From positions 62,001 through 126,000 of the forward strand of contig NZ_QHKM01000007.1 in NCBI RefSeq assembly GCF_003258365.1: 64,000 nucleotides of DNA. Direction: 5' to 3'. This DNA comes from Hymenobacter edaphi. GTDB lineage: Bacteria > Bacteroidota > Bacteroidia > Cytophagales > Hymenobacteraceae. Made by a program: the position numbers and the translations under genes. Positions within the stretch are counted from its first letter, which is position 1. Each line of letters begins with the position of its first letter. Positions 9,081 through 63,819 of the stretch are shown here, in pieces. The notes below the pieces were generated by a model. It worked only from the letters and a program-made list of their open reading frames with translations. It did not search any database and was not told the DNA's origin.

Positions 9081-9191
9081 GAATTAAGAATTAAGAATTA
9101 ACAATTAGTAATTACTAACTGTCCCGGCAGGCCTTATGTTGACGCGGGCTGACGGGATAATTATTAATTACTAATTGTTAATTCTTAATTG
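9081..9191. repeat. Intergenic inverted element with heptamer arms (locus A)
   Basis: Two arms of five degenerate 7-bp words each (9081-9115 on the plus strand, 9191-9157 on the minus strand) flank a 41-bp GC-richer core. Words are gaattaa, caattag, taattac and close variants. A 26-bp stretch of the arms is a perfect inverted repeat (9089-9114 with 9165-9190), extended by tcccg/cggga inside. The right arm contains the stop codon and last codons of porW, and the left arm ends 6 bp from the PBP start codon. It is one of five elements of the same design in the window. Confidence 0.9.
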
Positions 9192-12153
9192 AGTAAACGG
9201 GCTGGGCGAAGCGTTGGTACTCCTCCAGGTTGCCGCGCGTCAGCAGCACGGGCAGGTTATCAATACCGATCTGGAAGGATTGGTAACCCGCGTTACGCAG
9301 TTTCAGCAGCGGGCCCTGCGGGCCGCGCAGCTTCAGGGCGTAGTTCTGCGCCACCTTGTTGTTGGCAAAGGGCTGCACCACCACCAGCTGCTGCGTAGCG
9401 CCCAGCGGCTGCACCTGAATCTGCAGGTTGCTGGCCTTGAAGAAGCGGTTGTTGTAGGCCGTCAACTGTACCTGCAGGTCGTTGAACGCGGCGGCATCCT
9501 TCGGGAAAACAATGGCTACGGCGTGGGGCGCAGCCAGGTTGAACGCGTAAGGCGAAGGCTCCGGCGCCGGGGCCACCGGCGGCGCAGATGCGGGCGGCGT
9601 GGGGGTGCCCGGCGCGGGCGGGGCCGGGGTGTTATCGGCGTCTTTGGCCGGCGTCTTCTTGGTGGCTGCCGGCTGCGGACCTGCACTCACGCCCGGTACT
9701 GCCGCGGGGGCGGCCTCCTTGGGCTGGGGCTCCTCCTTTTTCGGGGGGGCAGCCGCCGGCGCCGGCGCGGCCGGGCGGGGCGCCGGCAGCGGCTCGTCGT
9801 AGTCGATGCGCATGCGGTTGTCGACCTCGCCGGGGCGGAAGAACGACACCACCGGCTTTTCCGTCGAGGCCAGGGCCCCGGCCAGCTGGCCCGATTCGTA
9901 CTTGGTATAGCTCTGCAACAGTTCCTGGGCCCGCGGGGTCAGCGGGCTTTCGGGGTATTTCTGCACGAAAGCCGTCAGGGCCGCCTTGTGGGCCGCGGGC
10001 GGCTGGGTGCGGATAACCAGCAGCGCGGCCAGGTAGTCGGCGCGGTCGTCCAGGTCGGTTTGCGGGTTCAGCTTCCGCGCCCGCAGCAGGGCGGCGTTGG
10101 CCTTGCGGAATTCCTGCTTTTTGTAGAAGGCGAAGGCCGAATCAAGGCGCACCGTCATCTGCTCGTTGGCCAGGGAAGCGCGGCGCAGGTACTCGGGGTC
10201 GGCCACCAGGCGGGCGTAGGAGGAGTTGGGAAACTCCGTGCGCAGCCGCTGGGCGTACTGCTCGGCCTTGGGGTCGTTCTGCTCCTTGTAGATGAGGTAG
10301 AGCGTGTAGTACGTTTCCACCGTGTGCGGCCCCTTCGGAAAGCGCTGCAAGAGCTGCTCGTAGGTCTGCACTGCGTTGGTGGGCTCCTTCAGCTGCTGGT
10401 TGTAGATGGCGCCCAGGGCAAACAGCGCCTCTTCGATCTGGGCTTCGGACTGCTGCTGCTGCGAGGTCGTGAAAGGCAGGCTCTGCCGGTACTCCGCTAT
10501 CAGGGCGGCCCGCTCGTCCTGCGGCGTTGCCTGCTTGGCCGAGGCATCCCCCGACGGATTGATGACGGAGTTGCTGGCGCCGCCCACCGTCACGGGGGCG
10601 CCCGCGCCCGGGGCCGGGGCGCCGGTGGTAGCCAGGCTGCTCAGGCGCCAGTTGTCGGTGAGCGGGCGGTTGCCCCAGCGGCGCTCAAAGTCACCGCGGG
10701 CCGTGCTCAGCGCCTGCGGGTTGTCGAAGTACCACGCCCGGCCCGCGTTGTTGGTGGCAAAAGCCAGCGGGTCGACGTCGGAGTTGCCGGTGCGCGTCGG
10801 GTCCTGACCGGTGCCGGTCTGGTTGGCGCTGCGGGCGGCCAGGGCGGCCTGCCGCTCGGCTTCGCGCTTGCGGCGCAGCATTTCCGCATCAGCATAAGCC
10901 GTCAGGCGGCCGCGCAGGGCGGCCGTATCCAGGCGCACCAGCGTGAGCAGGCTGTCCTGGGTCTGGATGACGGTAATCTGCTTGGCGAAGTCGCGCAGAA
11001 TGTCGCTGCGCTCCTTGATGGCGGCGTAGCCCGGCGTTTCGCGCGGCAGGCTTTGGGTGGTGCTGTCGTAGTAGGCCGCGGCCAGCTGGTACTTGCGTAG
11101 GTTCTCGTAGTAGATGCGCCCGGCCAGCAGGTAGGCGTAGCCGCGCTGGGCCTTGTTGGTCGTATTGGCCCGCACCGACTGGTTCACCAGCTTCAGCGCC
11201 GAGTCGAAATGCTGCTGGCGGTAGTCCAGCCGCGCCATTTCGTAATAGATCTTGTCGCGGTACTCCTTGTTCTTCGGGTCTTTCAGGAGCTTGCTGAAGT
11301 ACTTGTCGAGGCGGGCCCGGTCCTGCTGGTTCAGGTCCGACACCTGCCCGAGCATGAGCTTGGAGAAGAAATCCAGCTCGTAGGGCGGGTTGCGCTTCAG
11401 AATCTTGTTCAGCTCGGCGTAGGCTTCCTTGTCCTGCCCGTTGTTCTGGTACAGCTGGGCCAGGATGTAGCGCGTGCGGCTGCGCTCATCCTTTTTCGGG
11501 ATATAAGGAATTGCTTTCTGGATGTTGGCAATGGCCAGCTGCTCCTCGCCCTCGTGGAGGTAATACTCGGCGCGGGTCAGAAACAGCTCCCGGGCGTTGG
11601 CCTCGGTGCCTTCTTCCTTATCCAGCAAATCCGAGACGGCCGAGGCGTTGTCCCACTGCTTGGTCACCATGTAGGTGCGCATCAGCCAGATCAAGGCCTC
11701 GTGCCGGGCGTTGGCGTCGTTGCTGGTGGTGTTGATGTACTTGAAGGTCTTGACAGCCTCCTCGAACTCGCGCTTGTAGAAGCGCGTCTTGCCGATCAGA
11801 ATGTAGGCATCGTCGGTCCAGTCGCTGCTGCTGCGGCGCACCACCGGGATGGATGCCTTCTTCACCACCTCGTCCATGGCCGCCGTCAGGCCCACCGCCT
11901 TCACCGAGTCGACCACCGGAAACAGCGGCAGCACGCGGTTGTAGTCGTTGGGCCGCTCCTTATAGAGCTTGTCCTCTTCGGCGCGCATCTTCTCGCGGGC
12001 CAGGAAGTAGCCGTTGTCGCGGGCCGTAATGTTCTGGTAGGTGCGGGCCACCACGTTGTGCCGCTCGGCCGAGCAGCCGCTCAGCAGCAGGGCCGTGCCG
12101 GCCACGAACAGGCCACAAGCGGAGGATAAAGCAAAACGCGCGGAATTCGGCAC
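9178..12153 (-). CDS. porW: T9SS/gliding lipoprotein PorW (SprE), TPR-rich
   Basis: PorW/SprE is a lipoprotein required for type IX secretion; it links the secretion ring to other machine parts. The 991-aa product starts at GTG with a lipoprotein signal (LLLSGC, lipidated Cys27) followed by the family-typical opening ERHNVVARTYQNITARDNGY. Many TPR-like helical pairs follow (for example around 110-330 and 540-720), then a long Pro/Ala-rich linker (about 770-860) and a C-terminal globular domain (AVAIVFPKDAAAFNDLQVQL to the end). Its last codons and stop lie inside a repeat element. The assignment rests on the start, the size and the C-terminal domain; a generic TPR lipoprotein is the alternative. 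Confidence 0.82.
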   Translation of the reverse strand: MPNSARFALSSACGLFVAGTALLLSGCSAERHNVVARTYQNITARDNGYFLAREKMRAEEDKLYKERPNDYNRVLPLFPVVDSVKAVGLTAAMDEVVKKASIPVVRRSSSDWTDDAYILIGKTRFYKREFEEAVKTFKYINTTSNDANARHEALIWLMRTYMVTKQWDNASAVSDLLDKEEGTEANARELFLTRAEYYLHEGEEQLAIANIQKAIPYIPKKDERSRTRYILAQLYQNNGQDKEAYAELNKILKRNPPYELDFFSKLMLGQVSDLNQQDRARLDKYFSKLLKDPKNKEYRDKIYYEMARLDYRQQHFDSALKLVNQSVRANTTNKAQRGYAYLLAGRIYYENLRKYQLAAAYYDSTTQSLPRETPGYAAIKERSDILRDFAKQITVIQTQDSLLTLVRLDTAALRGRLTAYADAEMLRRKREAERQAALAARSANQTGTGQDPTRTGNSDVDPLAFATNNAGRAWYFDNPQALSTARGDFERRWGNRPLTDNWRLSSLATTGAPAPGAGAPVTVGGASNSVINPSGDASAKQATPQDERAALIAEYRQSLPFTTSQQQQSEAQIEEALFALGAIYNQQLKEPTNAVQTYEQLLQRFPKGPHTVETYYTLYLIYKEQNDPKAEQYAQRLRTEFPNSSYARLVADPEYLRRASLANEQMTVRLDSAFAFYKKQEFRKANAALLRARKLNPQTDLDDRADYLAALLVIRTQPPAAHKAALTAFVQKYPESPLTPRAQELLQSYTKYESGQLAGALASTEKPVVSFFRPGEVDNRMRIDYDEPLPAPRPAAPAPAAAPPKKEEPQPKEAAPAAVPGVSAGPQPAATKKTPAKDADNTPAPPAPGTPTPPASAPPVAPAPEPSPYAFNLAAPHAVAIVFPKDAAAFNDLQVQLTAYNNRFFKASNLQIQVQPLGATQQLVVVQPFANNKVAQNYALKLRGPQGPLLKLRNAGYQSFQIGIDNLPVLLTRGNLEEYQRFAQPVYSIKN

Positions 12154-12423
12154 GGGCAGCAGAAGGCGGTGGATGAAGGATGAGTTGCGGGGAAAACGCT
12201 GCCGGGCAGCCCTTTTGTTCAGCCCGGGTGCAGCAACCGCCTCGGCTGTTGCCTGGGCTGTTGCCTGGGCTGCGTCCCGACCACGTACAACGCCGCAAAT
12301 CAGCTAAAAGTACGCGAATTTACCCGGTGCCGTCCGGCCGCGGCCGGATTCGGCCTCATTTAGTGCGGGTTGGCTGCTGATTTGGCAATCATGGCGTACC
12401 TTTGCAGCCTTCATTTGAAATTC
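12154..12423. promoter_or_regulatory. Divergent intergenic region porW / atpZ
   Basis: This 270-bp stretch separates divergent porW (-) and atpZ (+) and must hold both promoters, though I could not fix the promoter elements. It contains a small tandem repeat of a 12-bp word (ggctgttgcctg, 2.4 copies, 12244-12272). No gene is seen in it. Confidence 0.5.
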
Positions 12424-12645
12424 ATGCCCGAATCCACGCCTCCGCCTAAGAAAAGTACGAGCCAGCTGGCCCGCTACTCCGGCGTGGGCATGCAGATGCT
12501 GGTGACCATCGGCCTCAGCGTCTGGCTGGGCGTCTGGCTCGATGAGAAATACGGCTGGAGCCCCTGGGCCACGGTGGTGCTGTCCTTACTAGGAGTATTC
12601 GCCGCCATGTACCAGATTATCCGCAGCGTTTCCAACGACAAATGA
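12424..12645 (+). CDS. atpZ: ATP synthase accessory protein AtpZ-like
   Basis: A 73-aa membrane protein of the AtpZ / ATPase_gene1 type, which in other bacteria assists assembly of the Fo part of ATP synthase or ion supply to it. The start at ATG 12424 removes an implausible upstream extension of the frame. The sequence has a short cytoplasmic start, a helix at about 23-41 (MLVTIGLSVWLGVWLDEKYG), a short loop and a second helix at about 48-66, ending NDK. The order AtpZ, AtpI-like, AtpB at the head of the atp cluster supports the call. Function in this organism is inferred. Confidence 0.8.
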   Translation: MPESTPPPKKSTSQLARYSGVGMQMLVTIGLSVWLGVWLDEKYGWSPWATVVLSLLGVFAAMYQIIRSVSNDK

Positions 12646-12730
12646 ACTCTTCGGCGGCTGATTTTCTTACGGCTGCCCCACGCCCCGCTCTTTGACCCCG
12701 CGTCCGCCGCTCCCGCGCGCCCCGCACTGC

Positions 12731-13138
12731 ATGAACCGTTTCCTTCGCAATCTGCTCCTCTTCTCCGTTTTACTCGGCGCCGGCATCTATGCCCTGCGGC
12801 TGCAGTACGGCGCGGCGGTGGTGCATCCGCAGGCGGACTGGCTGCTGCTCTTCTTTGTGGTGCTCACGGCGCTGACCTTCTGGCTGACCTGGCGTGCCTT
12901 TCAGCGCGACCCGGAGTCACTGATGACGGCCTGGTTCAGCACCACCGCCCTGCGCTTGGTACTCGCTTTAGTGGTTGTTGTAACCTACTTAGTGCGTGGC
13001 GGGGCCAAGGCGGGCAATAGTACTTGGACTTTTTTGGGCCTGTTCTTCCTCCTGTATTTTCTCTATACCGGGTTTGAAGTCTGGAACGTCGTGACTAACT
13101 TGCGCCCGTTTTCAAAACAGCCCTCCGACGAGGCGTAG
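12731..13138 (+). CDS. Four-helix membrane protein, AtpI-like
   Basis: A 135-aa membrane protein with four predicted helices (about residues 6-22, 36-53, 66-86 and 95-115) and a short polar tail. Its size, topology and place directly before atpB fit the poorly conserved AtpI-like proteins of Bacteroidota atp clusters, thought to help c-ring assembly. ATG 12731 is preferred to the upstream in-frame ATG, which only adds a Pro/Arg-rich stretch. It overlaps no neighbour: 85 bp separate it from atpZ and 32 bp from atpB. Sequence similarity alone would not establish the function. Confidence 0.65.
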   Translation: MNRFLRNLLLFSVLLGAGIYALRLQYGAAVVHPQADWLLLFFVVLTALTFWLTWRAFQRDPESLMTAWFSTTALRLVLALVVVVTYLVRGGAKAGNSTWTFLGLFFLLYFLYTGFEVWNVVTNLRPFSKQPSDEA

Positions 13139-13170
13139 TTTTGGACTCGATTGACCCTAAATCATTCTGA

Positions 13171-14256
13171 ATGAAGCGGTTTCTGCCCTTTCTCTTCTGG
13201 ATTCTGACCCTGCCGGTTTTCGCGCAGGAACATCCCACGGAGGTTTCTACCACCGCCGATACGCAGGTTGAAGCCACCGAAGAGGGCAAGTTCAACGCCG
13301 GTGAGATGATTCTGCACCACGTGGGCGATTCGCACGAATGGCACTTTACCTCCATTGGCGAGAACCACGTCACGCTGCCGCTGCCCATCATTGCCTACCG
13401 TCCCGACAAAGGCCTGTCGGTTTTCTCGTCGAGCCGCTTCGGCCACGAGTTCAAGGAAAGCTACGACGGGCTGAAGCTGGAGCACGAGCACCTGGTAACC
13501 GAAGACGGCAGCACGGTGTACGACCTGAGCATCACCAAGAACGTGGCTTCCATGCTCATCAGCGTGCTGCTGCTCATCCTGGTATTTACTTCGGTAGCTG
13601 CGGGTTATAAGAAAAACCACGGCCGCGCGCCCAAAGGCCTGCAGTCGTTCTTCGAGCCCATCATCCTCTTCGTTCGCGACGAAATTGCCAAGAAGGCCAT
13701 TGGTCCCAAGTACAAGAAGTTTCTGCCGTACCTGCTGACCATCTTCTTCTTTATCTGGTTCAACAACCTGCTGGGCCTGCTGCCGGGCGCCGCGAACCTG
13801 ACCGGCAACCTCGCCGTCACGTTCCTCTTCGCCTTCATCACGCTGCTCATCACCACGTTCAGCTCCAACAAGTACTACTGGTCGCACATCTTCTGGACGC
13901 CCGGCGTTCCGCTGTGGCTGCGCCCGATCATGATTCCGGTGGAGCTCATCGGCGTGATTTCGAAGCCCTTCTCGCTGATGGTTCGACTGTTTGCCAACAT
14001 CACGGCCGGTCACATCATCATCCTGAGCTTCATCTCGCTGATCTTCATCTTCAACACGGTGGCCGTATCGCCGCTGTCCCTGGCCTTCGGTCTGTTCATC
14101 AACTGCCTGGAGCTGCTGGTGGCCCTGCTGCAAGCCTACATCTTCACCCTGCTCACCGCCATGTACATCGGCGGCGCCGTGGAAGAGCACGATGACCACG
14201 ACTACGGCATCGGCGGCGACGACGCCGACGCGCCGGCCCACGCGCACGCTCACTAA
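13171..14256 (+). CDS. atpB: ATP synthase Fo subunit a
   Basis: Subunit a forms the proton half-channels of the Fo motor next to the c-ring. The 361-aa protein is longer than enterobacterial subunit a because it has an N-terminal signal-like segment (ending VFAQE) and a soluble domain of about 120 residues before the first channel helix, which is usual in Bacteroidota. The essential arginine is in MVRLFANITAGH (Arg272). The last 24 residues form an Asp/His-rich tail (EEHDDHDYG...AHAHAH), an unusual ending. It precedes atpE by 68 bp. Confidence 0.96.
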   Translation: MKRFLPFLFWILTLPVFAQEHPTEVSTTADTQVEATEEGKFNAGEMILHHVGDSHEWHFTSIGENHVTLPLPIIAYRPDKGLSVFSSSRFGHEFKESYDGLKLEHEHLVTEDGSTVYDLSITKNVASMLISVLLLILVFTSVAAGYKKNHGRAPKGLQSFFEPIILFVRDEIAKKAIGPKYKKFLPYLLTIFFFIWFNNLLGLLPGAANLTGNLAVTFLFAFITLLITTFSSNKYYWSHIFWTPGVPLWLRPIMIPVELIGVISKPFSLMVRLFANITAGHIIILSFISLIFIFNTVAVSPLSLAFGLFINCLELLVALLQAYIFTLLTAMYIGGAVEEHDDHDYGIGGDDADAPAHAHAH

Positions 14257-14324
14257 GCCGCGCTTCCCTCGTTTTTTCCTTTTTCGAATTTTTCTCCTTT
14301 TCACACTCCCCAAACCCCTGTTTT

Positions 14325-14585
14325 ATGCTTCTCACTCTGTTGCTGCAGGTCGTTAATGCTGTTGGTCTGGCCGTAATGGGCGCTGGTATCGGTGCTGGCC
14401 TGGCTATCCTGGGTGCCGGCCTCGGCATCGGTCGCATTGGCGGCAGCGCCATGGAGGCTATCGGCCGCCAGCCCGAGGCTTCGGGCAAAATCCAGACGGC
14501 TATGCTGATCGTAGCGGCCCTCGTTGAAGGTGCAGCTCTGTTCGCCGTCGTAGTCTGCCTGCTGATTGCTCTGAAACTGCAGTAG
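14325..14585 (+). CDS. atpE: ATP synthase Fo subunit c
   Basis: This 86-aa proteolipid forms the rotating c-ring. It has two membrane helices joined by the polar loop GRQPE (residues 47-51). The ion-carrying carboxylate is Glu68 in helix 2 (ALVEGAALF). The residues around it lack the Ser/Thr next to the Glu that is typical of sodium-binding rings, so proton coupling is the likelier use. A GC-rich hairpin follows directly, between atpE and atpF. Confidence 0.97.
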   Translation: MLLTLLLQVVNAVGLAVMGAGIGAGLAILGAGLGIGRIGGSAMEAIGRQPEASGKIQTAMLIVAALVEGAALFAVVVCLLIALKLQ

Positions 14586-14595
14586 TAGCATAGAT

Positions 14596-14640
14596 AACCC
14601 GGCCGCCGGCTTTCCCACTGCGGGGGCTGGTGGCCGGGTT
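14596..14640 (+). promoter_or_regulatory. Hairpin between atpE and atpF
   Basis: An imperfect inverted repeat (14596-14610 with about 14626-14640; outer arms aacccggcc and ggccgggtt are perfect) folds into a GC-rich stem of about 15 bp. It has no T-run after it, so it is more likely an mRNA-stabilising or partial attenuating structure than a full terminator. It would let atpE, needed in many copies per complex, be expressed above the downstream genes. That role is inferred. Confidence 0.6.
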
Positions 14641-14723
14641 GATGCTGTTATTGGGTTGTTTCGGGTGGTTCCGTCGGACGCCCCGTGGAGCCCATTTCTC
14701 ACCTAGCAATCTGCTAAGCGACC

Positions 14724-15215: not shown

Positions 15216-15319
15216 AGTTGATAGTTGTCCGGTAACAGTTGTCAGTTGTCAGGAGCACATTTCCCCGCTTTTGGCGCCTGTACTGACAACCAGCAACTGA
15301 CAACTGATAACTGACCAAC
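15216..15319. repeat. Intergenic inverted element with heptamer arms (locus B)
   Basis: Left arm 15216-15250 has five 7-bp words (agttgat, agttgtc, a divergent third word, then agttgtc twice). The right arm, on the minus strand from 15319 to 15285, also has five (gttggtc, agttatc, agttgtc, agttgct, ggttgtc). A 34-bp core separates them. The left arm starts 1 bp after the atpF stop and the right arm ends 3 bp before the atpH start, so the element occupies the whole junction and supplies atpH's translation start region. Confidence 0.88.
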
Positions 15320-15322
15320 CCA

Positions 15323-15880: not shown

Positions 15881-15889
15881 GTCAGCATC

Positions 15890-17473: not shown

Positions 17474-17563
17474 ATTGTTAAATGGTTGAATGGCTAAATG
17501 GTTGGTCGTTCTGGCAACGCGAGAACAATCAACCATTTAGCCATTTAACAATTCAACCATTCA
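17473..17563. repeat. Intergenic inverted element with octamer arms (locus C)
   Basis: Each arm is four 8-bp words (32 bp): 17473-17504 on the plus strand and 17561-17530 on the minus strand, with a 25-bp core. The inner two words (aatggcta, aatggttg) are identical in both arms and give a 16-bp perfect inverted repeat (17489-17504 with 17530-17545). The outer two words are the same pair in swapped order. The left arm starts at the last base of the atpA stop and the right arm ends 2 bp before the atpG start. Confidence 0.92.
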
Positions 17564-18457: not shown

Positions 18458-18476
18458 AACCGAATCTGCCAGACCG

Positions 18477-18520
18477 AAGCCGGCCCGCTTTCCGCAAGGA
18501 AGGCGGGCCGGCTTCTTTTA
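18477..18520 (+). terminator. Terminator of the atp operon
   Basis: Arms 18477-18493 and 18498-18514 pair with one mismatch around a 4-nt loop (core ggcccgctttcc / ggaaggcgggcc), followed by cttttatt. It closes the atp operon 20 bp after the atpG stop. The same GC core recurs in three other hairpins up to 27.7 kb. Confidence 0.9.
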
Positions 18521-18542
18521 TTCCATGATGAAAAAGGTTATA

Positions 18543-35179: not shown

Positions 35180-35353
35180 GGCAATGAGCAAATGGACCCG
35201 GGCCGGGAAGTGAAGTAGCCATTGACAATGAGCGATGAATAATGCGCACTGGGCGTAACCGCCCCAACAGGCGGGCGTAGCCTCATTGCTCATTGCTCAT
35301 TGCTCATTGCTCATTGCTCATTGCTCATTGCTCATTGCTCATTGCTCATTGAT
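35180..35353. repeat. Intergenic inverted element with expanded heptamer arm (locus D)
   Basis: The right arm (35284-35353) is ten 7-bp words: nine perfect cattgct and one cattgat. The left arm holds four degenerate complements (35217-35244; on the minus strand cattatt, catcgct, cattgtc, aatggct) and two more isolated words nearer the DUF6766 stop (35180-35193). The core between the arms is 39 bp and GC-rich. Perfect identity of the nine copies suggests recent expansion by slippage or active copying. It belongs to the same family as the elements at 9.1, 15.2, 17.5 and 63.3 kb. Confidence 0.88.
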
Positions 35354-35397
35354 AATTTGCGGGCCGAATAAGGTCCGGCGTCGGGCCGTTGCTGCGC

Positions 35398-57300: not shown

Positions 57301-59399
57301 GAAATGTCGCGGATGGTGTTGCCCTGCACCAGGTTGGTGCCGCCCGAGACAAACGACAGCTGCATGGGGTAGAAGCGGCTGGTCGAGCCGCTCATCGTGT
57401 AGGTAGCTGCAGGCGCGGCCGGCTGCGGCGCCGCCGCGCTGGCGGCCGTGCTGGCCCCGCCCCCGATGAAGTTGCCCGATATCGTGTAGCCCGTGCCGGT
57501 AGCGGTGGCGGCCCCGATGTTGATGGCGTAGTGCACCGCGCCCGAGCTGTAGGTGCGCGCGCCCGACTGGTAGAAGGCGTTGTTGGTTATCGTCCAGCCG
57601 GTGTTGTTGCTCGAAGCCAGCAGCACGCCGTTCGACGAGTTGCTGGCGTTGAAGTAGTCCAGCAGGTTGTTGCCGGTGATGACGTTGCCGCTGTTGGCCG
57701 TGTTGGTGCCCGACGCGGCGTAGATGAGGTTGGTGGCAAAGCCCGTGGTACCGGTCGTGCTGCTGACCGAGCCGATGCTGTTGAAGCGCAGCGTGTTGTT
57801 GCTGTTGCCGCCGCCCGCCGCCGTGTTCGTGGCCGCGAATACCACCGCGCCGGAGCTGGTGCCGCTGTTCTGGCTTTTCAGCTGGCAGTACTGCACCACG
57901 TTGTTCTGCGCGTCGGAGGTGAAGCGCAGCACCGCGCCGGCCGTGCTGGTGTTGGTCAGGGTAAGGTAGCTGCTGCTGGTGCCGCTCACGCCGCCGGGGC
58001 GCCCGTCCAGCACCAGATTGCGCCCCCCGTTCACGTCGAGCAGGGCAGTGGCATTGGTCAGGCTGAGCACAATGGCGCTGGCGCCGGTAGCCGACGCCGC
58101 CGGCCGGATCGTCACCGGGTTGCTGGCCGAGGATGCCGCAAACGTGTAGGAGATGGGCAGCGTTTCGGTGCTGCCGGTGTAGCCGGGCAGCAGCTCGATG
58201 ATGACGCCGCCGGGGCAGACGCCCTGCGCCGTCAGGGCCGCCAGGGCGCCGCCGGTGCCGCTCAGGGTTGGGTAGTTGCCGCCCGGCCCCACCGTCACCA
58301 CGCCGCCCGTGCCGCAGAACGTGCCGTTGAGCGTCGCCTGCTGGCCCGCCGTCAGCGCCGCGAGGCCCTCCGTAGCGGCGTAAACGCGGTAGTAGTAGGT
58401 CGTGCCGTTCGCGAGGCCCGTCTGGGCCACCGTCTGCGTGCCGCCGGTGCCCGCCGGGCTCGTCGTGCCGCTGGAGACGATGGTGGCCACCGGCGTGAAG
58501 TTCACGTTGTCGGTGGAGCGCAGCACCGCGAAGGTGGTTTCCGTGGTCGAGTTATCGGTGATGACCAGGCTGAAGCTGCTGGCCGTGACGCTGGTGAAGC
58601 TCACGCCCGGCGCCGCCGGCGTTACCTGCGGGGGCGTAAACGTGTAGGTCTGTCCGCTCGCGGGCTTGGTGCCGATGGAGTTGGTTTCCGAGGTCGAGCT
58701 GAGCGTAGGGCTAGCGCCCAGGTTGTTGAGCGAGAGGAAGTTGCCGCTGCCCGTGGCCGTGGCCGTCAGGCCCACCGACGCCGTGGCCGAGGCGCCTGGC
58801 GAAACCGCGTCGTCGGGCGAATACACGAACTGCACCGCGCCCGTGGCTTCGTAGAGCTTCAGCTGAAAGCTGATCTGCGAGGCCGGATTGGCGTTGTAGT
58901 ACCAGTTTGCGCCCTTCCACTCCGCGGTAAACACGCGGCTGCCGGCCGCGCCGCTGGTCTGGTAGGAGAAGTTGCTGTTCGAGGGCAGGCTCAGGTCGTC
59001 CCAGAGCGGGGCCGCAATGGGCCGCGGAGTGCCGCCGCTCAGGTTGTTGGAGGCGCTGGTCGAAGTCGTTGCCCCGAAGCTGACGAACCCGTTGGTGCTG
59101 GCCGAAACGGTGGTATAGGGCGTGCCGTTGTAAAAGAACGTGAAGCCGATGGGCAGCGCGTTGAACAGGCCGTCGTCCAGGGAGCCGGAGCTCAGGGCCG
59201 GCACCGTGCCGCCGCTCAGCGGGGTGTAGGTGCCCGCGCTGGCCACAAACGAGCCGTTGGGCGCATTGTAGTTGGCCAGGCTCTGCGCCCAGGCGCCGGA
59301 GCTGACCAGCAGGAGCAGCAGGCTCAGGAGCCGACCCATCTGCCGCCTTCCCGGTGAGGACACGCGGCGGGCAGTTGGCAAGCGTAAAGGTGTGTGCAT
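48360..59399 (-). CDS. Giant beta-helix T9SS-secreted protein (3,679 aa)
   Basis: A giant secreted protein, 3,679 aa from ATG 59399 (an internal ATG at 59339 would give 3,659 aa; the longer start gives the basic n-region also seen in its neighbour). The signal peptide ends near GAWAQ. A short beta-sandwich domain comes first (FTFFYNGTPYTTVSASTNGFVSFG region), then a fibronectin type III segment (APGVSFTSVTASSFSLVI). The bulk is a very long run of right-handed beta-helix turns with G-N-x-I/V and N-N-T-V ladders (for example TITNNAFYQSG, NNTVGSITQAN, NNLIRNLANAS, GNTVRNLQVL), broken by CARDB-like and jellyroll inserts. It ends with an Ig-like part, a fibronectin-like region and a sorting domain (AAWPNPLSGQELTLEV to VRLVKQ). 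A fibrous surface adhesin is likely; no catalytic motif was found. Confidence 0.85.
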   Translation of the reverse strand: MHTPLRLPTARRVSSPGRRQMGRLLSLLLLLVSSGAWAQSLANYNAPNGSFVASAGTYTPLSGGTVPALSSGSLDDGLFNALPIGFTFFYNGTPYTTVSASTNGFVSFGATTSTSASNNLSGGTPRPIAAPLWDDLSLPSNSNFSYQTSGAAGSRVFTAEWKGANWYYNANPASQISFQLKLYEATGAVQFVYSPDDAVSPGASATASVGLTATATGSGNFLSLNNLGASPTLSSTSETNSIGTKPASGQTYTFTPPQVTPAAPGVSFTSVTASSFSLVITDNSTTETTFAVLRSTDNVNFTPVATIVSSGTTSPAGTGGTQTVAQTGLANGTTYYYRVYAATEGLAALTAGQQATLNGTFCGTGGVVTVGPGGNYPTLSGTGGALAALTAQGVCPGGVIIELLPGYTGSTETLPISYTFAASSASNPVTIRPAASATGASAIVLSLTNATALLDVNGGRNLVLDGRPGGVSGTSSSYLTLTNTSTAGAVLRFTSDAQNNVVQYCQLKSQNSGTSSGAVVFAATNTAAGGGNSNNTLRFNSIGSVSSTTGTTGFATNLIYAASGTNTANSGNVITGNNLLDYFNASNSSNGVLLASSNNTGWTITNNAFYQSGARTYSSGAVHYAINIGAATATGTGYTISGNFIGGGASTAASAAAPQPAAPAATYTMSGSTSRFYPMQLSFVSGGTNLVQGNTIRDISLTTTTSGTTPFFHAITLTAGNATIGGTSLAEGNSIGSGSANGSITVVSSSGQGITNGISSSSSGTVLIGYNTVAGITAGLATGNITQVINGIIATAGTLTIDNNTVGSITQANSLYVPNVTGTASVLVRGIVSTTTGSMSLNNNTVANLKSDNTGSTSAQVIGITATSGTAAVTLTGNTVRNLTNAAPNVSGGTSAALMGIYASNTSATATNVSTNTVFGLSGTAATGSGFNVLGIYYNGSATGTLALNRNFVHGLSLSTTTTTAASSIIGIQLAGGTTPLTNNMVRVGLDASGSSIGNGAVEITAIYKTTAAGVANNFYHNSLYVGGTANGGAATTAALRRTNTGTDVVRNNVLVNARSNGTATGTHAAVTLNATASTTFSNNVYYAPGTGGTVALVGGTPASSLSGDANSAVADPMFVNATAATPDLHIRTDVATPVESKGVALASVPDDFDGTPRNAGTPDVGADEGTFIGGDQVAPTISYTPLGNTTNTTTRTLSGVSIADDATGVGLATTAGSTRPRLYFRRLNLDGTAVDPGVINDNTSATAGWKYVEASGTNTASPFSFDIDYSLLAGGTGVVPGQRIQYFVVAQDAAGNVASNAGTLATSGPNKPGSVALTTNQLPSGPLNDYSISIVFGGTAYEVNASGTPSTPGNQTFTSLTGAGGLFAALNQGVLTASTTVTITSDLTEDGTIPLNQLTEQGAGGYALLLRGDGTRRTVSGPGFAQGLIRLNGADRVTIDGGAGQQLLFRNLNTTLSPTFTLLNDATGNTITRSIIEGGNTSATSATILFYNGTSTGNQNNVISGNDIRELTVAPNTVPNTAIRSVTDAGTATNQGNVVSGNDIHNFTGTGVALSATGNGDAWSIGGAAAAEGNRIYQDAARSTALTGISLASGNNHVVSNNKLYQTAGLNTSGFTGIYLSAGTGHTVSSNVIGGADATAGGSPLGVSGTTYGIRLAVGTTAPTSVQNNLIRNLANASTSSATYGLYASAGLLSIGTGSSTGSNTGNVIGDATPGLGISTKYDAYGIYLTSSTAGHAFTVSGNTVRNLQVLTGAGSLPFNYGLLAYSVDKSTVQNNTVRDLSIGSGVVNGRLYGIVVGQSGAHDVLGNTVTNLSSGTVPSSSNFTHTIGIISNSSGAVVVADNAVSNVALTSTTVVNSNSYFNLVAGVLMSASSGGGGKVLRNRVWNLSSQAPALATAPNLLDAVLGVGTADSYANLTAANNQIAPGSGSVAGVPVLGILNGGSGTGNAFYYNSVYLTGSGAVDSYAYRRTGSTASGALRNNIFYNERTGAGSHYAIGYQTAAGWPATTSNYNLLVTADNAKVGNTAGTARDFGTWKATSGGDASSTAYLPTAAEVGGSATGLFNAPATGDLTINAGFASTPSPIESGGTALAGTVDNDIQGDIRQGSPGYAGSGTKPDLGSDEYAGTVLPVMQYTGTVVTQNANPVFAGATTQQVLRVELTTTGSFNPLQLTQLTFTADGTTDLANISNARVYYTGTSSTFATTTAFGAATAPAFGAQGGFSFTGTQTLQTGTNYFFLVYDVTAGAATDNLVDATLTSLTIPAAPGSPFAIDPAVGAPAGARRILGPMNGSFTVGRTGGEAYATIKDALADLTARGLQTTGGVGVTFLLTNPAATTGAYDAASGEVFPLTIGTIAGADATRRVTIRPQTGVTASITGSNAKALILLDGADYVTLDGSNAPGGSSRDLSLTNTNTGTSSTVVYGQTGASTNSATNNVIQNLVVTGSGPTQTLMGIGFGSSTVSSTSLGTGNNGNQVLNNSISRVQYGIYSQGASASNRNTGTVISGNVLTTAAPGNVGRYGIYLGHESGAQVTLNAIGGLTSTSDVAAINLGAGTTQSTSAPSGNAVVDATVSRNTVSGVVSTGTASALGIVLGAATAGTTTISNNLVAGVVSSSSSSELTAGLYLGGGAGSTTNVYFNTVALSGSRDVGSTPPTGPSLALAVAGSNPVVVLRNNVLSNTQTTAGTGKTYALGLGYSAYTNLASSHNDLYTDGANALLASVGSGAFAGTSTTTLPALQTATGQEASSKNADPLFVGSTLVPNACALDNTGFVGTGISEDYAAAPRSSTPDLGAYEFGSTVSTDLRLQALTAPAAGSSCRTTTETVTVVVRNNGCDLTLSPANPLTLTVAVTGPAGPLPSLSLTVTSGTLLAGTAAAYTVSTAFDMTFGGSYTLVPSLSYAGDQTSSNDALAGVTIISTNPALTVSANATVCPGGSATLTASAPQYLNPNKVIFAETFEGATNAFTATSTGSQPLSGFSLVTAGYKLGGSGTPANGTAYNGPDGNAAGHYYVADSDKYGSSTGGVNSTITTLTSPSFSTLGFTGATLSFQHFYYYYSTDVTAQVEYSVNGGAWAVLADYEATGASVGSATTGATAALPLPAAALGQTDVRIRFSYETSYGFSWAIDNVSVAGPSLEDATFTWTPASGLSATTGSSVTATPSATTTYTVTANYAAINCASSKPVTVTVTDQTTWTGTQSTDWFDGRNWSACVPSNLTDALVPTVASGRYPAIGGGTAAVRSVRFSDNGQLTMTDGTLSVYQDWTRTGPGPSSALTGGTVAFVGAGAQQLTEAVGFANLTVAKTADTLHVAANPTVTGALTMSSGILKTYVLSTTHQVNLTGTLSETASSFVLGNVVTSAPLGTDGASSTFGGLGLTLTAHTTGGASLPGATTVTRMTGRPMYGMAGSTSIRRQFNIEPAVDTNLNVDMVFGYGDSAFELQGIGEGSLTLFSNAGVPGGWRQEGYTSRDAAANTVTLNGLNHLSLWTLGDAAVPLPVSLAAFTAQRQGTDAVLTWTTAQEKNNRGFEVQVSLDGHSFRPLGFVASETSTSTSARHYRFVDREAGKQGLRHYRLRQLDLDGTAALFGPRTVQFEQVIKLALAAWPNPLSGQELTLEVLSPAAGATELVLLDAVGRVVLRQTADLRAGAQRLSLHLSEQLPAGAYLLRLTSAGQTGTVRLVKQ
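48633..48707. repeat. 75-bp near-identical patch shared by the two giant adhesin genes (copy 2)
   Basis: Second copy of the patch at 41646-41720, with one substitution over 75 bp. It codes for the segment directly before the linker to the sorting domain. Both genes are read on the minus strand, so the copies are direct repeats about 7 kb apart and could recombine. Confidence 0.85.
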
Positions 59400-59878
59400 A
59401 GAAGAAAATGAGGTTGGAAAGGCAGCTGAAGGCAGCAAAATGACCGCACGACTGGTTGAAAATCAGCGGCTAGGCCATTGATTTCAACTTCCAATGCGGC
59501 AAGGAATGGCCAGCCCCGGTTTCGGATGGGGGCAAACGCGTAAGGCTGGCACAGCAGGGCGGGTGGAGCTTCGAAGGTGCTGCGCCAGAATGCCTGGGAA
59601 CAGTACACTGCGAGTCAGCAAACTACCGGTTTTATGTGATAATACCAGTAAGATGTAACCGGGATTTTGCACATGTTCAGCTAAGTGGTCAACGACTATC
59701 TTGGCTGGGTATCATTGCTTTTTCCAATTATAGTTTGTGAACAGTAACCGAAAATGGGCCTCTGCTGCTTCCCAGGCCGGCATGCTCGCTGTTCACCCAC
59801 CCTAGGGGCTGCGGAAGCAGTATGCTTTTACAGGCCGCGGCAACCGAGCCGGGGGCACATGGAGCGTTGAGCCGGGGC
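59400..59878. promoter_or_regulatory. Upstream region of the giant beta-helix gene
   Basis: A 479-bp stretch without a convincing gene. It is less GC-rich than its surroundings, especially 59610-59760, and must carry the promoter and leader of the 3,679-aa gene (minus strand) and the 3' end region of the membrane-protein gene. I could not fix a promoter, and no strong hairpin stands out. Confidence 0.5.
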
Positions 59879-60949
59879 TTAGCCCTGCTGAATAGTGGAT
59901 ACCTCGGGGGCCACGGTGAGCCGGGCCATAAACACCAGGGCCTCCTGGTAGCGGCTGCGCAATTCCTGGTACTGCTGCCAGGCGGCCGTGCGGTCGGGGC
60001 GCAGCGGCAGGGCGCAGGCGGCCAGCTGGTCGAGGATGTCGTCGAAGCTGGCCCGGTCGATGTGCTGCGCCCGGCCGGCATGGGCGGCCAGCGGGCCCTG
60101 CCGCGGCGGCGTGCTGCGTACGTTCACTTCAAAATAGCGGTGCACCCGGTTCAGGGCCAGGCAGCCGGCTTTGAAGCAGATTTCCATCTGCGGGCTGCGG
60201 GGCTGCTCCACGGCGCTGAACACCAGCGCCGCCGCGTCGAGGATGATGCCGGCGGTGCTCACCCAGGAGCGGCCGGGCTGGGGCGAGCGGAAAAACGAGA
60301 GGATGGGCAGGGAAGTGTGGCTTTCCTCGATTTCCACGAACCACTCTTCCCAGCGCATCCACGGCTCGTCGTGGTAGAGCCGTTCGGCCCCGTACAGCCA
60401 CTCGACCAGGGCCGTGGCCGAGCTGGGCGAACCGGCCCGCAGCTCCAGGCGGGCCACCACCAGCTCGCGCCGCGAAAACGACTGGTAAATGGTGGGCAGG
60501 TAGGAAATCAGCAGCGTGAGCAGCAGCAGCCCCAGCGCCGCCTCGGAGTACGACAGCGCCGTGGCCGCCACGCCGTGGGTGGGCTCCTCCGAGCCGAGCG
60601 TGAGCAGGGAGCTGCCGCTGATGCGGTAGCAGCGAAACCAGTGGCCCTCATCCAGCCCCCAGAAAATGCCCGTGTAGGCCAACGACAGCAGGGCCAGCCA
60701 GAAAATGGGCAGCGCCACCAAGGCTACCGGGGCGAAGAGGGCCAGCACCCGGTCGCGCTGGCCGTAGGTAACCGTGCGGGCCGCCAGCTGATTGAAGATC
60801 CAGCGGAAGCCCTGAAACAGCCACCCGTTGAGCCGAACCGACTCGTTGCGCGGCAGCACAAACGAGCGGATGGCGGCCGACAAGGTCAGCACGACCAGCA
60901 GCAGCCCGGCCAGCAGCACCGCTCCGCGTAACAATAAGTCCCAGGACAT
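59879..60949 (-). CDS. Membrane protein with pore-loop-like segment
   Basis: A 356-aa membrane protein I cannot name with certainty. It has an N-terminal helix (about 6-27), a second hydrophobic stretch (about 68-92), a short hydrophobic loop ISGSSLLTLGSEEPT (about 109-123) and a further helix (about 132-150), then a soluble C-terminal half with helices. The arrangement helix, re-entrant loop, helix and the sequence SLLTLGS recall the pore module of two-helix potassium channels, but the canonical TxGYG filter is missing. It may be a degenerate channel or an unrelated fold. Upstream of the giant adhesin gene on the same strand, not clearly cotranscribed. Confidence 0.6.
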   Translation of the reverse strand: MSWDLLLRGAVLLAGLLLVVLTLSAAIRSFVLPRNESVRLNGWLFQGFRWIFNQLAARTVTYGQRDRVLALFAPVALVALPIFWLALLSLAYTGIFWGLDEGHWFRCYRISGSSLLTLGSEEPTHGVAATALSYSEAALGLLLLTLLISYLPTIYQSFSRRELVVARLELRAGSPSSATALVEWLYGAERLYHDEPWMRWEEWFVEIEESHTSLPILSFFRSPQPGRSWVSTAGIILDAAALVFSAVEQPRSPQMEICFKAGCLALNRVHRYFEVNVRSTPPRQGPLAAHAGRAQHIDRASFDDILDQLAACALPLRPDRTAAWQQYQELRSRYQEALVFMARLTVAPEVSTIQQG

Positions 60950-61116
60950 CAGGCGGAAAGCGGGCTAAGGCGTGGCGGCATACAACGTTCTACGGCCCGG
61001 GCGCCCCACTGTTGAGCAGCAGGTACTTATCCCCCGAAGATGTGAGGCGCCGGGCGGGGCTTTGGCCTGGTGCTTGTTGCCACCGCTCCTACCAACGAAA
61101 ACAAACGACTACCCCT

Positions 61117-61908
61117 ATGAACCGCTTCCTGACCTTCGCCTTGCCACGCCCTGCGCTGCTGCTGGGCGGCGCCTTGCTGGCCCTGACCAGCTGCTCCACC
61201 ACCAGCCGCATTTCCATGCAGGTGCCGGCCCAGCTGTCGGCCGCGGCGCCGCTGCCCGTCACCGGCAAGCAGGGCTTCCGGCACAGCTACCAGTTCGGCG
61301 AGTTTGCCACCGCCCAGGTCAAGCAGGGCTGGTTTAGCACCGCGGCGTGGTCGTGGGGCAATGCCGCCGGCGGCTGGCTGCCCGCGCCGGTGTGGTTTGA
61401 TCAAACCCGCGCCCGGCAGAAAAGCTCGTTCACCATGCAGCCGGTGGGTGGCACCGCCTGGGAGGCCCAGTGCGCCTTCTTCGCTCACAGCGACGATTTG
61501 CGCCTCAGCCCCACGCCCAACAGCAACGTCGGCGTGACCCTGTTCAGCGAGGAGCTGTACAGCAGCATTATCAAGGCGCCGAACCAGCCCACCTGGCAGC
61601 TGATTCTGGAAAGCAAAAACCAGCTCGGCGACCGGCCCCAATTCGCCCGCGGCACGCTCTCCAACGGCGACTCGGTGCTGCAGGTGCGCCCCATTGCCCA
61701 GCTGCTGCGCCGCGACGGCCGGCCCATGACCCTGCCCTTCGGCGTGCCCGTCGGCTACGAGTTTGCCCGCCCCGACGGCTCGGTGGTAGCCGCCGTGGAG
61801 CTGATGGGCCGCGGCCGGGTGTGGGTGGCGCCCACGCTCACGCCCGCCGTGAAAGGCCCGGTGGCCGCCGCCCTCACAGCCATGCTGATTCACCAGCAGC
61901 GCATGTAA
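61117..61908 (+). CDS. Lipoprotein of unknown function
   Basis: A 263-aa lipoprotein. ATG 61117 begins MNRFLTFALPRPALLLGGAL and the lipobox LTSC puts the lipidated cysteine near residue 25; the in-frame ATG at 61012 adds an implausible tail. The mature part is beta-rich with no recognised domain (YQFGEFATAQVKQGWFST, AHSDDLRLSP, VGYEFARPDGSVVAAVE). No catalytic motif is visible. It is divergent from the membrane-protein gene and convergent with lutB, with a shared terminator. Confidence 0.72.
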   Translation: MNRFLTFALPRPALLLGGALLALTSCSTTSRISMQVPAQLSAAAPLPVTGKQGFRHSYQFGEFATAQVKQGWFSTAAWSWGNAAGGWLPAPVWFDQTRARQKSSFTMQPVGGTAWEAQCAFFAHSDDLRLSPTPNSNVGVTLFSEELYSSIIKAPNQPTWQLILESKNQLGDRPQFARGTLSNGDSVLQVRPIAQLLRRDGRPMTLPFGVPVGYEFARPDGSVVAAVELMGRGRVWVAPTLTPAVKGPVAAALTAMLIHQQRM

Positions 61909-61924
61909 CGGCGGCGCCCGGTAT

Positions 61925-61957
61925 GAAAAAAGCCGGAACTGCTTCCGGCCTTTTTTC
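61925..61957. terminator. Bidirectional terminator lipoprotein / lutB
   Basis: The stem aaaaaagccggaa / ttccggcctttttt (left arm 61925-61938, right arm 61943-61957, one bulged base, 4-nt loop) separates convergent genes and has T-runs on both strands. Confidence 0.88.
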
Positions 61958-61962
61958 GGGGT

Positions 61963-63345
61963 CTACTTTTTCGGGCGCTCCTTCCACTGCTGCCGGAACG
62001 ACTTCGGGGCCAGTTGAATGGCCTCGCGGCGCTTGCTCCAGCCTACCTGGCCCAGCAGGCGCTCCAGCACCCAGTTTTTGGCCGCGGTGGGGGCCAGGCT
62101 CCAGGTCCAGCGGTGCTTCATGCCGTAGAGCCAGAGCTTGATGCCGCGCTCCTCCTCCTTGTCGTTGAAGTGCTCTTTCACGGATTGCTGCCGGTTGAGC
62201 AGCAGGATGTTGTGAATCGGGATGCGCACCGGACACACCGAGGTGCAGGCCCCGCACAGCGACGAGGCGTAGCTCAGGTGCTTGTTGTCCTCGAAGCCGG
62301 CCAGGTGCGGGGTGATGACCGAGCCGATGGGCCCCGAGTAGGTGGCCTCGTAGGTGTGGCCGCCGATGTTTTTGTAGACCGGGCACACGTTCAGGCAGGC
62401 GCCGCAGCGGATGCACTGCAGGGCCTCGCGCTTGTCGGGCTGGGCGAGCAGGTTGGTGCGCCCGTTGTCGAGCAGCACCACGTACATTTCGTCGGGGCCG
62501 TCTTTTTCCAGCGGCTGGCGCGGGCCCAGGTACACCGTGTTGTACACCGTCAGCTGCTGGCCGGTGCCGCTGGTGCTCAGCAGGGGCCAGAACAGGTCCA
62601 GGTCCTGCAGCGAGGGAATCAGCTTTTCGATGCCGACCACCGCAATGTGGGTGCGCGGAAACGTGGCGGAGAGGCGGGCGTTGCCCTCGTTTTCGGTCAC
62701 GGCCACGCCGCCCACGTCGGCCACCAGGAAGTTGCCGCCCGTCACGCCCACTTCGGCCGCGGTGTACTTGCCGCGCAGCAGCTTGCGGGCCGTGGCCACC
62801 AGCTTCTGCGCGTCGTCGGTGGGCTCGATGTGCAGGTGCTTGACGAAGATGTCGGCAATGTCCTTCTTGCTCAGGTGCATGGCCGGCGTCACGATGTGGT
62901 AGGGCCGCTCGCCGTTGAGCTGCACGATGTACTCGCCCAGGTCCGTTTCCACCGATTCCACCCCGTTCTGCTCCAGGAAGTGGTTGAGGTGAATTTCCTC
63001 GGTGGTCATGCTCTTGGCCTTCACCACCGTGCGGGCCCGCTTGCGCGCCACGATCTTGCCGATTTCCGTCAGCGCCTCCTTCGCGTCCTGGGCCCAGATG
63101 ACCTTGCCGCCGCGCTTGGTGAAGTTTTCCTCCCACTGCAGCAGGTACTGGTCAAGATTGTTGACAATCTGTGACTTGCGATATGCGGCACGGGAGCGGG
63201 CCAATTCATGGTCGCGGTACCAGCCCAGGCCGGTCTGCACCGCCGCGTTGTACTTGCCGATGTTGAAGCGAATCTTGCGCCGGTGCTCCAGATCGAAGGC
63301 CTTCGAGTCGGAGTCGGTCAGAAACTGGGCGGATTTAGTAGTCAT
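61963..63345 (-). CDS. lutB: Lactate-utilisation iron-sulfur protein LutB-like
   Basis: LutB is the iron-sulfur electron-transfer subunit of the LutABC lactate dehydrogenase system. The 460-aa protein has the LUD domain in its first 290 residues (ARTVVKAKSMTTEEIHLN, EVGVTGGNFLVAD) and two [4Fe-4S] motifs: Cys311, 314, 317, 321 (CIRCGACLNVCPVYKNIGGH) and Cys364, 367, 371 (CGACTSVCPVRIP). The C-terminal tail WLYGMKHRWTWSLAP is usual. LutA and LutC are not visible here. The ATG overlaps an arm of repeat element E, whose four-helix-bundle gene lies just upstream, so transcription from the peptidase side would pass through that element. Confidence 0.9.
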   Translation of the reverse strand: MTTKSAQFLTDSDSKAFDLEHRRKIRFNIGKYNAAVQTGLGWYRDHELARSRAAYRKSQIVNNLDQYLLQWEENFTKRGGKVIWAQDAKEALTEIGKIVARKRARTVVKAKSMTTEEIHLNHFLEQNGVESVETDLGEYIVQLNGERPYHIVTPAMHLSKKDIADIFVKHLHIEPTDDAQKLVATARKLLRGKYTAAEVGVTGGNFLVADVGGVAVTENEGNARLSATFPRTHIAVVGIEKLIPSLQDLDLFWPLLSTSGTGQQLTVYNTVYLGPRQPLEKDGPDEMYVVLLDNGRTNLLAQPDKREALQCIRCGACLNVCPVYKNIGGHTYEATYSGPIGSVITPHLAGFEDNKHLSYASSLCGACTSVCPVRIPIHNILLLNRQQSVKEHFNDKEEERGIKLWLYGMKHRWTWSLAPTAAKNWVLERLLGQVGWSKRREAIQLAPKSFRQQWKERPKK

Positions 63346-63819
63346 TGCTGAATTGCTGCATTGTTGAATTGTTGACGCAAGTGGCCCAACGTCAAATTTT
63401 CAGCATATCGTCGGTGTAGCGGATCAGGCCGTTGAGGGCTTTGGGGAGGCGCTTTAGTTCGACAAAGAACGACTCGTATTGTTCGATGTCGAGCAACTGT
63501 CGCACTTTGGCCTTCTCATTCCAGTCCAGCGACTCATACATCGAACCCTGCGCGTAGCGGAAGAACTTGATCTTGTCGCGCTTCCCGTAGCGTCCGAAAC
63601 CCTCGGCAATGTTGGCCGAAATGCTGTCGACGCTGCGCACAAACTGCTGACCGATGGTGTCGCGGGCAAAGCTGTTCCAACTACCTACTGCCAGCCAAAC
63701 CCGGTTGCTGAGGGCAAAACTGATGCGGTAAGCCTCGATATCGTTCAGTCGTAGGAATTTACGCTCTTCCATCTGCATTGTCTGGATCAACAATTTAACA
63801 ATGCAGCAATTAAACAATT
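63343..63819. repeat. Intergenic inverted element with octamer arms carrying an S23 gene (locus E)
   Basis: Each arm is four 8-bp words: 63343-63374 on the plus strand (cattgctg, aattgctg and so on) and 63819-63788 on the minus strand. Word by word the arms agree at 28 of 32 positions; the second and fourth words are identical. The left arm begins on the lutB ATG and the right arm ends 3 bp from the M28 peptidase stop, so the element exactly fills the junction. Its 413-bp core contains the whole four-helix-bundle gene. It shares its 4 x 8 layout with locus C. Confidence 0.9.
63392..63772 (-). CDS. S23-type four-helix-bundle protein
   Basis: A 126-aa protein of the S23 / 23S rRNA intervening-sequence-protein family, a four-helix bundle related in fold to the Avd accessory protein of diversity-generating retroelements. 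It has the signature SISANIAEGFGR (residues 50-61) after GQQFVRSVD, KRDKIKFFRYAQGSMYESL and the C-terminal DDMLKI. ATG 63772 (MEERKF) matches the usual family start; ATG 63778 adds two residues, and the open frame continues to a TTG inside the repeat arm. No 23S rRNA gene is present, so this is a free-standing copy. It is enclosed by inverted octamer arms. The molecular function of free-standing copies is unknown. Confidence 0.9.
   Translation of the reverse strand: MEERKFLRLNDIEAYRISFALSNRVWLAVGSWNSFARDTIGQQFVRSVDSISANIAEGFGRYGKRDKIKFFRYAQGSMYESLDWNEKAKVRQLLDIEQYESFFVELKRLPKALNGLIRYTDDMLKI

Follow-up and report, generated by a model that had tools for sequence, protein, structure and literature searches.

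What are the paired arrays of short tandem words that lie in inverted orientation between genes, each pair with its own word, and how do they come to be there? Five such loci, A to E, were described in a 64,000-nucleotide stretch of the Hymenobacter edaphi genome (the window, G000:C41:62001-126000; source genome G000, 6.04 Mb in 43 contigs), and one of them, E, encloses a gene of the S23 family. Our reading, to which we give a probability of about 0.6, is that they belong to one family of small selfish DNA elements that insert themselves into intergenic junctions or replace them. The family would have an S23-coding form and a short, non-coding form, of which the latter predominates in this genome; either form is bounded by inverted arrays, mostly of three to six copies of a 7- or 8-bp word. 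Three observations underlie the reading: S23 genes from several phyla lie between such arrays, word and protein go together as a unit at unrelated sites, and a given intergenic junction may hold an element in one species and none, or a different element, in another.

Direct reading, inverted-repeat and tandem-repeat tools and our own detector agreed on the positions of all five loci, which are given below with the coding features of E (strand is given for the latter).

9081..9191: element A, inverted AATTAAG-type heptamer arrays (arms 9081-9115 and 9158-9190) between two minus-strand open reading frames (ORFs); tools and detector
15216..15319: element B, inverted GTTGTCA-type heptamer arrays lying between the stop of the likely atpF and the start of the likely atpH; reading and detector
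17474..17563: element C, inverted AATGGTTG-type octamer arrays in the likely atpA-atpG spacer; reading and detector
35180..35356: element D, a degenerate left arm at about 35221-35254 and a perfect (CTCATTG)10 right array at 35282-35351; detector and tandem-repeat tool
63341..63821: element E, inverted AATTGTTG/CATTGCTG octamer arms (63341-63375 and 63787-63821) enclosing an S23 gene; tools and detector
63392..63778, minus strand: the S23 gene, 23S-rRNA-intervening-sequence-protein-like, four-helix bundle, 128 aa from ATG; PF05635 1.5e-21, TIGR02436 5.3e-24
63343..63345, minus strand: start codon of the downstream 460-aa ORF, within the left arm of E; reading and ORFs

The names atpF/atpH and atpA/atpG at B and C are presumed from gene order. 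Among the five loci an S23-family (PF05635) ORF is found in E only, the cores of A to D being short, and the neighbours of E are two protein ORFs. At D, where a perfect ten-copy CTCATTG array (35282-35351) stands beside a degenerate partner arm, a recent expansion is likely and the length may vary between isolates.

The strict detector called an inverted arm pair in which each arm was periodic at 7 or 8 bp and the A+T content was at least 0.38. In the window it returned five elements only, at 9089-9190 (period 7), 15227-15315 (period 7), 17474-17560 (period 8), 35221-35356 (period 7) and 63341-63821 (period 8). These are exactly the loci for which the initial annotation had claimed a common architecture, and the claim is borne out; its inverted word-array arms are present at D too, but there they are lopsided, the perfect array facing a degenerate one. 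One hundred local dinucleotide shuffles of the window gave 2 matches in total, or 0.02 expected per window, so the shuffled-sequence control put forward in that annotation speaks against coincidence. A looser first detector, which allowed any period and any composition, found 4, 39 and 53 matches in the window and two 400-kb stretches, compared to 2, 7 and 7 in one shuffle of each. Chance palindromes were ruled out on the basis of the shuffles, although the looser detector matched shuffled sequence as well.

Further examples, which the initial annotation had called for, are plentiful. We ran the strict detector on the two 400-kb stretches and on 266 kb of the contig that holds the window, the window being part of these, for a genome sample of about 1.07 Mb. 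It found 13, 23 and 21 elements, respectively, 57 in all, which would extrapolate to about 323 per genome if they were evenly spread. Tandem arrays of periods 7 and 8 with A+T of at least 0.45 numbered 21 and 15 in one 400-kb stretch and 6 and 14 in another, while the shuffled stretches (one shuffle each) held 0-1 arrays at these periods. Arm size was said to be quantised; this holds approximately, with three to five units in 53 of the 57 elements and arms ranging from 17 to 52 bp. Likewise, the word differs at each locus among A to E, as had been stated, but across the sample words recur in families (GGTGAAAT, GTTGTCA, AATTAAG, CGTTTTT/CGTTGTT, AGGAGCT, GTGACAC, GGGTAGGA, AATTGTTG and others), the commonest being GGTGAAAT with 22 of the 57 elements.

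Most elements lie close to genes. Called genes lie on both sides of 48 elements and on one side of 1, and 8 fall inside called genes, possibly through gene-calling errors. Of the 48, 45 have a gene no more than 25 bp away on one side or both and 25 have one on both sides, the median element-to-gene distances being 6 and 7 bp. The flanking genes are co-directional at 36 of the 48, compared to 300 of 508 spacers (p 0.03), a mild enrichment; divergent or convergent pairs flank 12 of the 48.

The S23 gene of locus E is the coding form of the element and not an exception. Seven of the 8 genomes of the genus have PF05635 genes, as do 55 of 60 in the family. We scored the flanks of 88 S23 loci, taken from among the matches listed (23 from the genus, 25 from the family search and 40 chosen by hand from matches without a locus, full-length frames being preferred). 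Their inverted-arm score had a median of 21.8 (n = 88), compared to 10.6 in 400 random windows of G000, for which 95% lay below 13.8, 99% below 16.2 and the maximum was 18.8. A score of at least 15 was reached by 79 of the 88, and 58 of the 88 exceeded every random window. The best period of the 79 high-scoring loci was 7 in 70 cases and 8 in 9, so the suggested link between these arrays and S23 genes is sustained. A second null, made from mismatched left and right S23 flanks, had a median of 9.4, a 95% value of 15.0 and a maximum of 18.4. As a control, 88 of the genome's own genes of 300-480 bp, from a crude caller that evidently overlooked the S23 gene of E, yielded 2 scores of at least 15; period 7 or 8 was found in 1, which is itself an S23 gene (L052).

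Beyond the family we used 80 named loci and 29 loci from a phylum search. A score of at least 15 was found in 32 of 59 loci from Bacteroidota, 15 of 21 from other phyla and 15 of 29 from the phylum search; the thresholds were set on a GC-rich genome and chance scores are higher in AT-rich genomes, so the period is the better evidence there, and it was 7 or 8 in 60 of the 62 high-scoring loci. The 15 loci from other phyla (Clostridia, Planctomycetales, Phycisphaerae, Nitrospirae, Acidobacteriota, Gracilibacteria and others) all come from metagenome-assembled genomes, for which binning errors are possible. S23 genes on cyanobacterial plasmids, of which 12 were chosen among the matches listed (20 of 30 records), scored at least 15 in 12 of 12 cases (11 with period 7 and 1 with period 8; lowest score 15.0). 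Three of these plasmid loci with word-array arms, L341, L345 and L346, stand amid CRISPR cas genes, with cas6 and cas4 as neighbours in two cases and cas10 and a Cmr3-family gene in one. Internal stops interrupt the S23 frames of L056, L058, L120 and L121, where arms score at least 15 in 3 of 4, suggesting decaying copies; these four are included in the arm counts and left out of the protein tree and Mantel test described below. Searches for plasmid copies of the C element and for phage copies of the E protein found none. The nearest solved structures to S23 are 2rld and 2gsc.

Comparison of fixed junctions between species shows the turnover of these elements. In a survey of 30 atp loci (the B spacer was unparsed in L075, L080, L091, L092, L094 and L096), all 8 genomes of the genus have elements both at the likely atpF-atpH junction (B) and at the likely atpA-atpG junction (C); at B the arms are 7-periodic in all eight, with word families that differ. 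In genus g5, 7- or 8-periodic arms scoring at least 12 were found in 8 of 14 loci at B (2 unparsed) and 7 of 14 at C, arm scores of 12-15 in atp spacers being near chance when taken alone, so that the period decides. Of the eight B spacers of genera g3 and g4, the 4 that could be parsed have no such element, and at C two short units are seen in 1 of 8 (L089). In g5, the atpA-atpG spacer of L083, L085 and L087 holds another palindrome, of TGTCATTGCGAG... type, in place of a word-array element.

An identical 90-bp element occupies the C junction in G000, G001 and G005, while the flanks around it (atpA 3' and atpG 5') are 84.7-92.5% identical, that is, they differ by 7-15%. On the other hand, the genome closest to G000, G002 (96.2 and 94.5%), has a GTTGTCA element at C, which is the element at C in the other five genomes of the genus. 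The initial annotation had argued that copies cannot have moved as one fixed sequence; an exact copy in three species with diverged flanks contradicts this. Non-identical relatives of C are found elsewhere in several genomes, the best at 82-88%.

At their junctions, elements D and E were detected in G000 only and in none of the 7 other genomes of the genus. E spans the interval from stop to start codon, where relatives carry different spacers; no target-site duplication was seen by eye at D or E, and since E replaces the whole spacer there is no clean empty site. In G002 and G006 (L292 and L293) the E junction holds an unrelated sequence of about 460 bp that may be a small gene. When the 21 elements of the window's contig were sought in G002, 17 could be placed; by-eye assignment put 12 in the same or a close word family (the junction of A, for instance, holds an element of the same family), 2 with another word, 2 with no element and 1 as decayed. 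Word variants differ between G000 and G002 at sites whose flanks are 85-98% identical. A further palindrome, GTAGAGACGCG...CGCGTCTCTAC, lies near G000:C11 1159961 (the end of L031), and a similar stretch is present in the D spacer of G002 (L302).

Does the word follow the protein? A quick tree of 84 S23 proteins, which rests on few columns and leaves many forks unresolved, groups similar words across genera, and unit length changes six times on it. Word similarity was correlated with protein identity (Mantel r 0.270) after removal of 188 homologous-flank pairs, which include neighbours on both sides of one gene and are not all one site; the null maxima were 0.084 in 2000 permutations and 0.100 when permuting within genus. 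Mean word cosine rose from 0.03-0.05 for pairs with less than 50% identity to about 0.1 in the 50-70% range and to at least 0.2 above 70% (16 pairs). At one junction the S23 proteins of G002 and G005 are 88% identical and have GGTGAAAT arms, and G006 has a broken copy (77-78% identical) with weak arms; the S23 of G000 at this junction is only 48-51% identical and has GGGTAAGA arms. At a second junction different words accompany S23 proteins that are 19% identical. This shows that the arm word follows the S23 protein and not the site, and that arms and gene move as one unit.

Words are also common to the short and the S23-bearing forms. Short GGTGAAAT elements contain a GTTC motif in the inner left arm in 15 of 22 cases and in the right arm in 8 of 22, compared to a background of 0.081 in random genome DNA. 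The motif recurs in the same-word S23 elements L067 and L068, though not clearly in L058, and its presence in both forms fits an origin of the short ones as deletion derivatives. A core motif for all word families was considered and kept for GGTGAAAT only, as the pooled enrichment seems to be driven mainly by that family. Separately, L097 to L125 include 16 homologous-flank loci at which an S23 site is kept over several genera while the arm words differ; at 4 of the 16 we take the neighbours to be a thiolase and an acyl-CoA dehydrogenase.

The arms themselves bear on whether the paired molecule is DNA or RNA. Stems kept as RNA should tolerate G-U over A-C mismatches when read in the orientation that is transcribed, and the counts were 97 G-U vs 97 A-C in S23 arms and 47 vs 39 in the genome's own co-directional elements. 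The lack of an excess argues against RNA pairing, and RNA hairpins kept by base pairing were set aside on this ground. In the GGTGAnnT word, which has two variable positions, the in-register identity of the two arms was 0.662 vs 0.584 (0 of 5000 permutations; 35 motif-chosen pairs, not all independent, since some are the G002 versions of elements also counted in G000). In 21 match-chosen elements it was 0.622 vs 0.471; this set was selected for matching arms, and the motif-chosen pairs give the smaller and safer effect. Such complementarity, beyond that of two arrays of the same word, suits a DNA hairpin or arm-to-arm copying, and it upholds the earlier suggestion that both arms change together inside a locus. 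Polarity is strong. Of 44 GGTGA arrays on the plus strand, taken from the genome sample and from G002, 35 are followed by an inverted partner within 250 bp downstream and 0 have one upstream. In the 5' arm, G outnumbers C in 56 of the 57 elements of the genome sample and in 63 of 79 S23 arms (6 reverse, 10 equal).

How a selfish family of this kind might work can be outlined. Each S23 protein, a four-helix bundle related to the retroelement factor Avd, would have the word as its recognition site; we favour the view that it recognises the paired array as DNA and that it helps the hairpin to be copied into gene junctions by the replication or repair machinery of the host. The short forms would have arisen by deletion and would be spread in trans, and slippage together with arm-to-arm copying could make the words drift together inside a locus. 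Several points weigh against this. We saw no excised form, new insertion or target-site duplication. G004 lacks a PF05635 match yet has elements at B and C, and their upkeep is thus independent of S23. We know of no catalytic centre in S23, so the chemistry would need another source. Arms fall below the threshold in 47 of the 109 loci beyond the family, and the correlation between word and protein is modest in size. Moreover, arms and S23 are physically linked, and their covariation therefore shows joint travel only, not word reading. An S23 gene with the GGTGAAAT word is absent from the G000 sample and present only in congeners. Finally, the co-directional enrichment suits an RNA role also.

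That last point leads to the possibility that the elements are regulatory RNA or DNA sites, with S23 as a word-specific regulator and the short elements as its targets or as mRNA processing hairpins (e.g. for RNase III) kept by selection at operon junctions. The same likely operon junctions are indeed occupied across species, S23 loci lie between conserved genes, and an S23-bearing intervening sequence (IVS) of Coxiella 23S rRNA is excised by RNase III (PMC4990558). We nevertheless consider this explanation unlikely: besides the missing G-U excess, a quarter of the two-sided elements (12/48) lie between divergent or convergent genes, D and E are lineage-specific, the C element is identical despite diverged flanks, and such an element is missing from all 4 parsable atpF-atpH spacers, of 8, in the outgroup genera g3 and g4.

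Alternatively, slippage and hairpin template switching could build the arrays in place and protein-free, with S23 as a passenger. The differing word variants of G000 and G002 at closely similar flanks, arms that stay in register at variable positions and the perfect array at D would all follow, whereas the frequent bracketing of S23 genes in several phyla, the exact transfer of C and the return of word families and of a core motif at loci that are not linked would be left unexplained, and we regard such an origin as quite improbable. A small chance goes to a mobility enzyme of another kind, either a transposase of the Y1/RAYT type or a reverse transcriptase, that moves the hairpins while S23 is cargo or an accessory, like Avd in diversity-generating retroelements. 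REPINs are hairpin doublets tied to RAYTs (PMC3116915), the S23 protein of L052 matches bAvd (6.8e-7) and DivGenRetAVD (1.2e-6), a weak similarity to Avd with both values under the curated cut-offs, and Y1_Tnp matches pass the cut-off in 6 of the 8 genomes that represent the genus, G000 having one (33.5 bits). At E 0.001, on the other hand, RVT_1 has no match in G000 and any match in only 2 of 8 genomes of the genus; a reverse transcriptase partner was set aside for this reason, and the reverse transcriptase connection raised by the initial annotation is not supported. G005 and G006, in which Y1_Tnp has no match, carry elements, and the one Y1 gene of G000 has no 7/8-bp array or element in the 2.3 kb read, so a Y1 transposase partner was likewise set aside. 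This only Y1 transposase-like gene found in G000, a 189-codon open frame at G000:C41:40986-41555 (L351), has by eye an inverted sequence of its own (GGGAGTC...-type) at both ends, as expected of a RAYT-like unit and unrelated to the word arrays.

The selfish-element reading would have consequences for a common protein family, since S23 or "four helix bundle" genes are present in most genomes of the family. Should every S23 go with a particular DNA word, its function becomes directly testable by binding, with natural specificity variants at hand, and gene junctions gain a replaceable, fast-evolving module. The recurrence of the design around S23 in several phyla points to an overlooked family of selfish DNA. 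Among the matches listed in the open-licence PubMed Central literature we found no paper that joins S23 genes to inverted heptamer arrays.

How do the elements compare to known systems? As the initial annotation had supposed, we know of no named class for which the elements show all of the defining features that were tested. The short tandemly repeated repetitive sequences (STRRs) of heterocystous cyanobacteria are intergenic heptamer arrays, which the tandem 7-bp intergenic units of A, B and D resemble, while C and E are built of octamers. The repeat unit in stem P6b of the Nostoc tRNA-Leu intron is seven bases long. In A to D and the other short copies, terminal inverted repeats around a short, non-coding core recall miniature inverted-repeat transposable elements. 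From diversity-generating retroelements the system differs by the lack of a reverse transcriptase (RVT_1) match in G000.

The S23-bearing IVSs of Coxiella, Leptospira and others resemble E, in which a PF05635 ORF lies between inverted repeats. The rRNA IVS with its S23p ORF has complementary termini that could form a long stem and has been termed selfish, and in Xanthomonas S23p assembles as a homopentamer whose subunits are four-helix bundles (PMC4990558); bacteria of the candidate phyla radiation have an intervening-sequence protein (IVP) ORF within 16S and 23S rRNA insertions (PMC11270868). Those IVSs, however, sit in rRNA helices and E sits between protein ORFs, and the elements here have tandem 7/8-bp array arms and many S23-less copies. 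In 50 S23 loci scanned, E not among them, there was no rRNA match (Rfam), and identity with an rRNA IVS was set aside. REPINs and RAYTs share the inverted doublets with predicted hairpins, the extragenic position and the combination of scattered non-autonomous copies with a protein gene dedicated to them (PMC3116915). In contrast, our elements have no linked Y1 transposase, their protein is a small four-helix bundle, and their arms are word arrays in which word and unit length vary by lineage.

Several repeats have been described separately. The GGGAATC repeats of Xanthomonas form 70 and 75 convergent inverted pairs in two genomes and have no general association with mobile elements (PMC4692102); neither xcc0516 nor the word "intervening" occurs in the portion of that paper available. 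For the TAACTGA repeats of Beggiatoaceae, described as direct with one inverted case, a repeat-binding protein was considered as a possible mobile element, with 0 occurrences of the name S23 in the available portion (PMC4679880). The P6b stem-loop of the Nostoc intron derives from one of two repeat motifs whose classes have replaced each other repeatedly; such replacement at a fixed site resembles that at B and C, although P6b lies inside a group I intron and no S23 gene is mentioned in the available portion (PMC4476775). Tentatively, and at slightly less than even odds, we propose a new class of selfish DNA that extends over several phyla and rests on the co-evolution of a recogniser, the non-catalytic four-helix-bundle protein S23, with its address, a tandem 7/8-bp word. 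Much intergenic heptamer repetition (STRRs, Xanthomonas GGGAATC pairs, TAACTGA arrays and the Nostoc intron stem) would then be accounted for by the short forms of this class, and S23 would stand behind the spread of IVSs. If this is true, intergenic heptamer repeats that have been described one by one join into a single mobile system.

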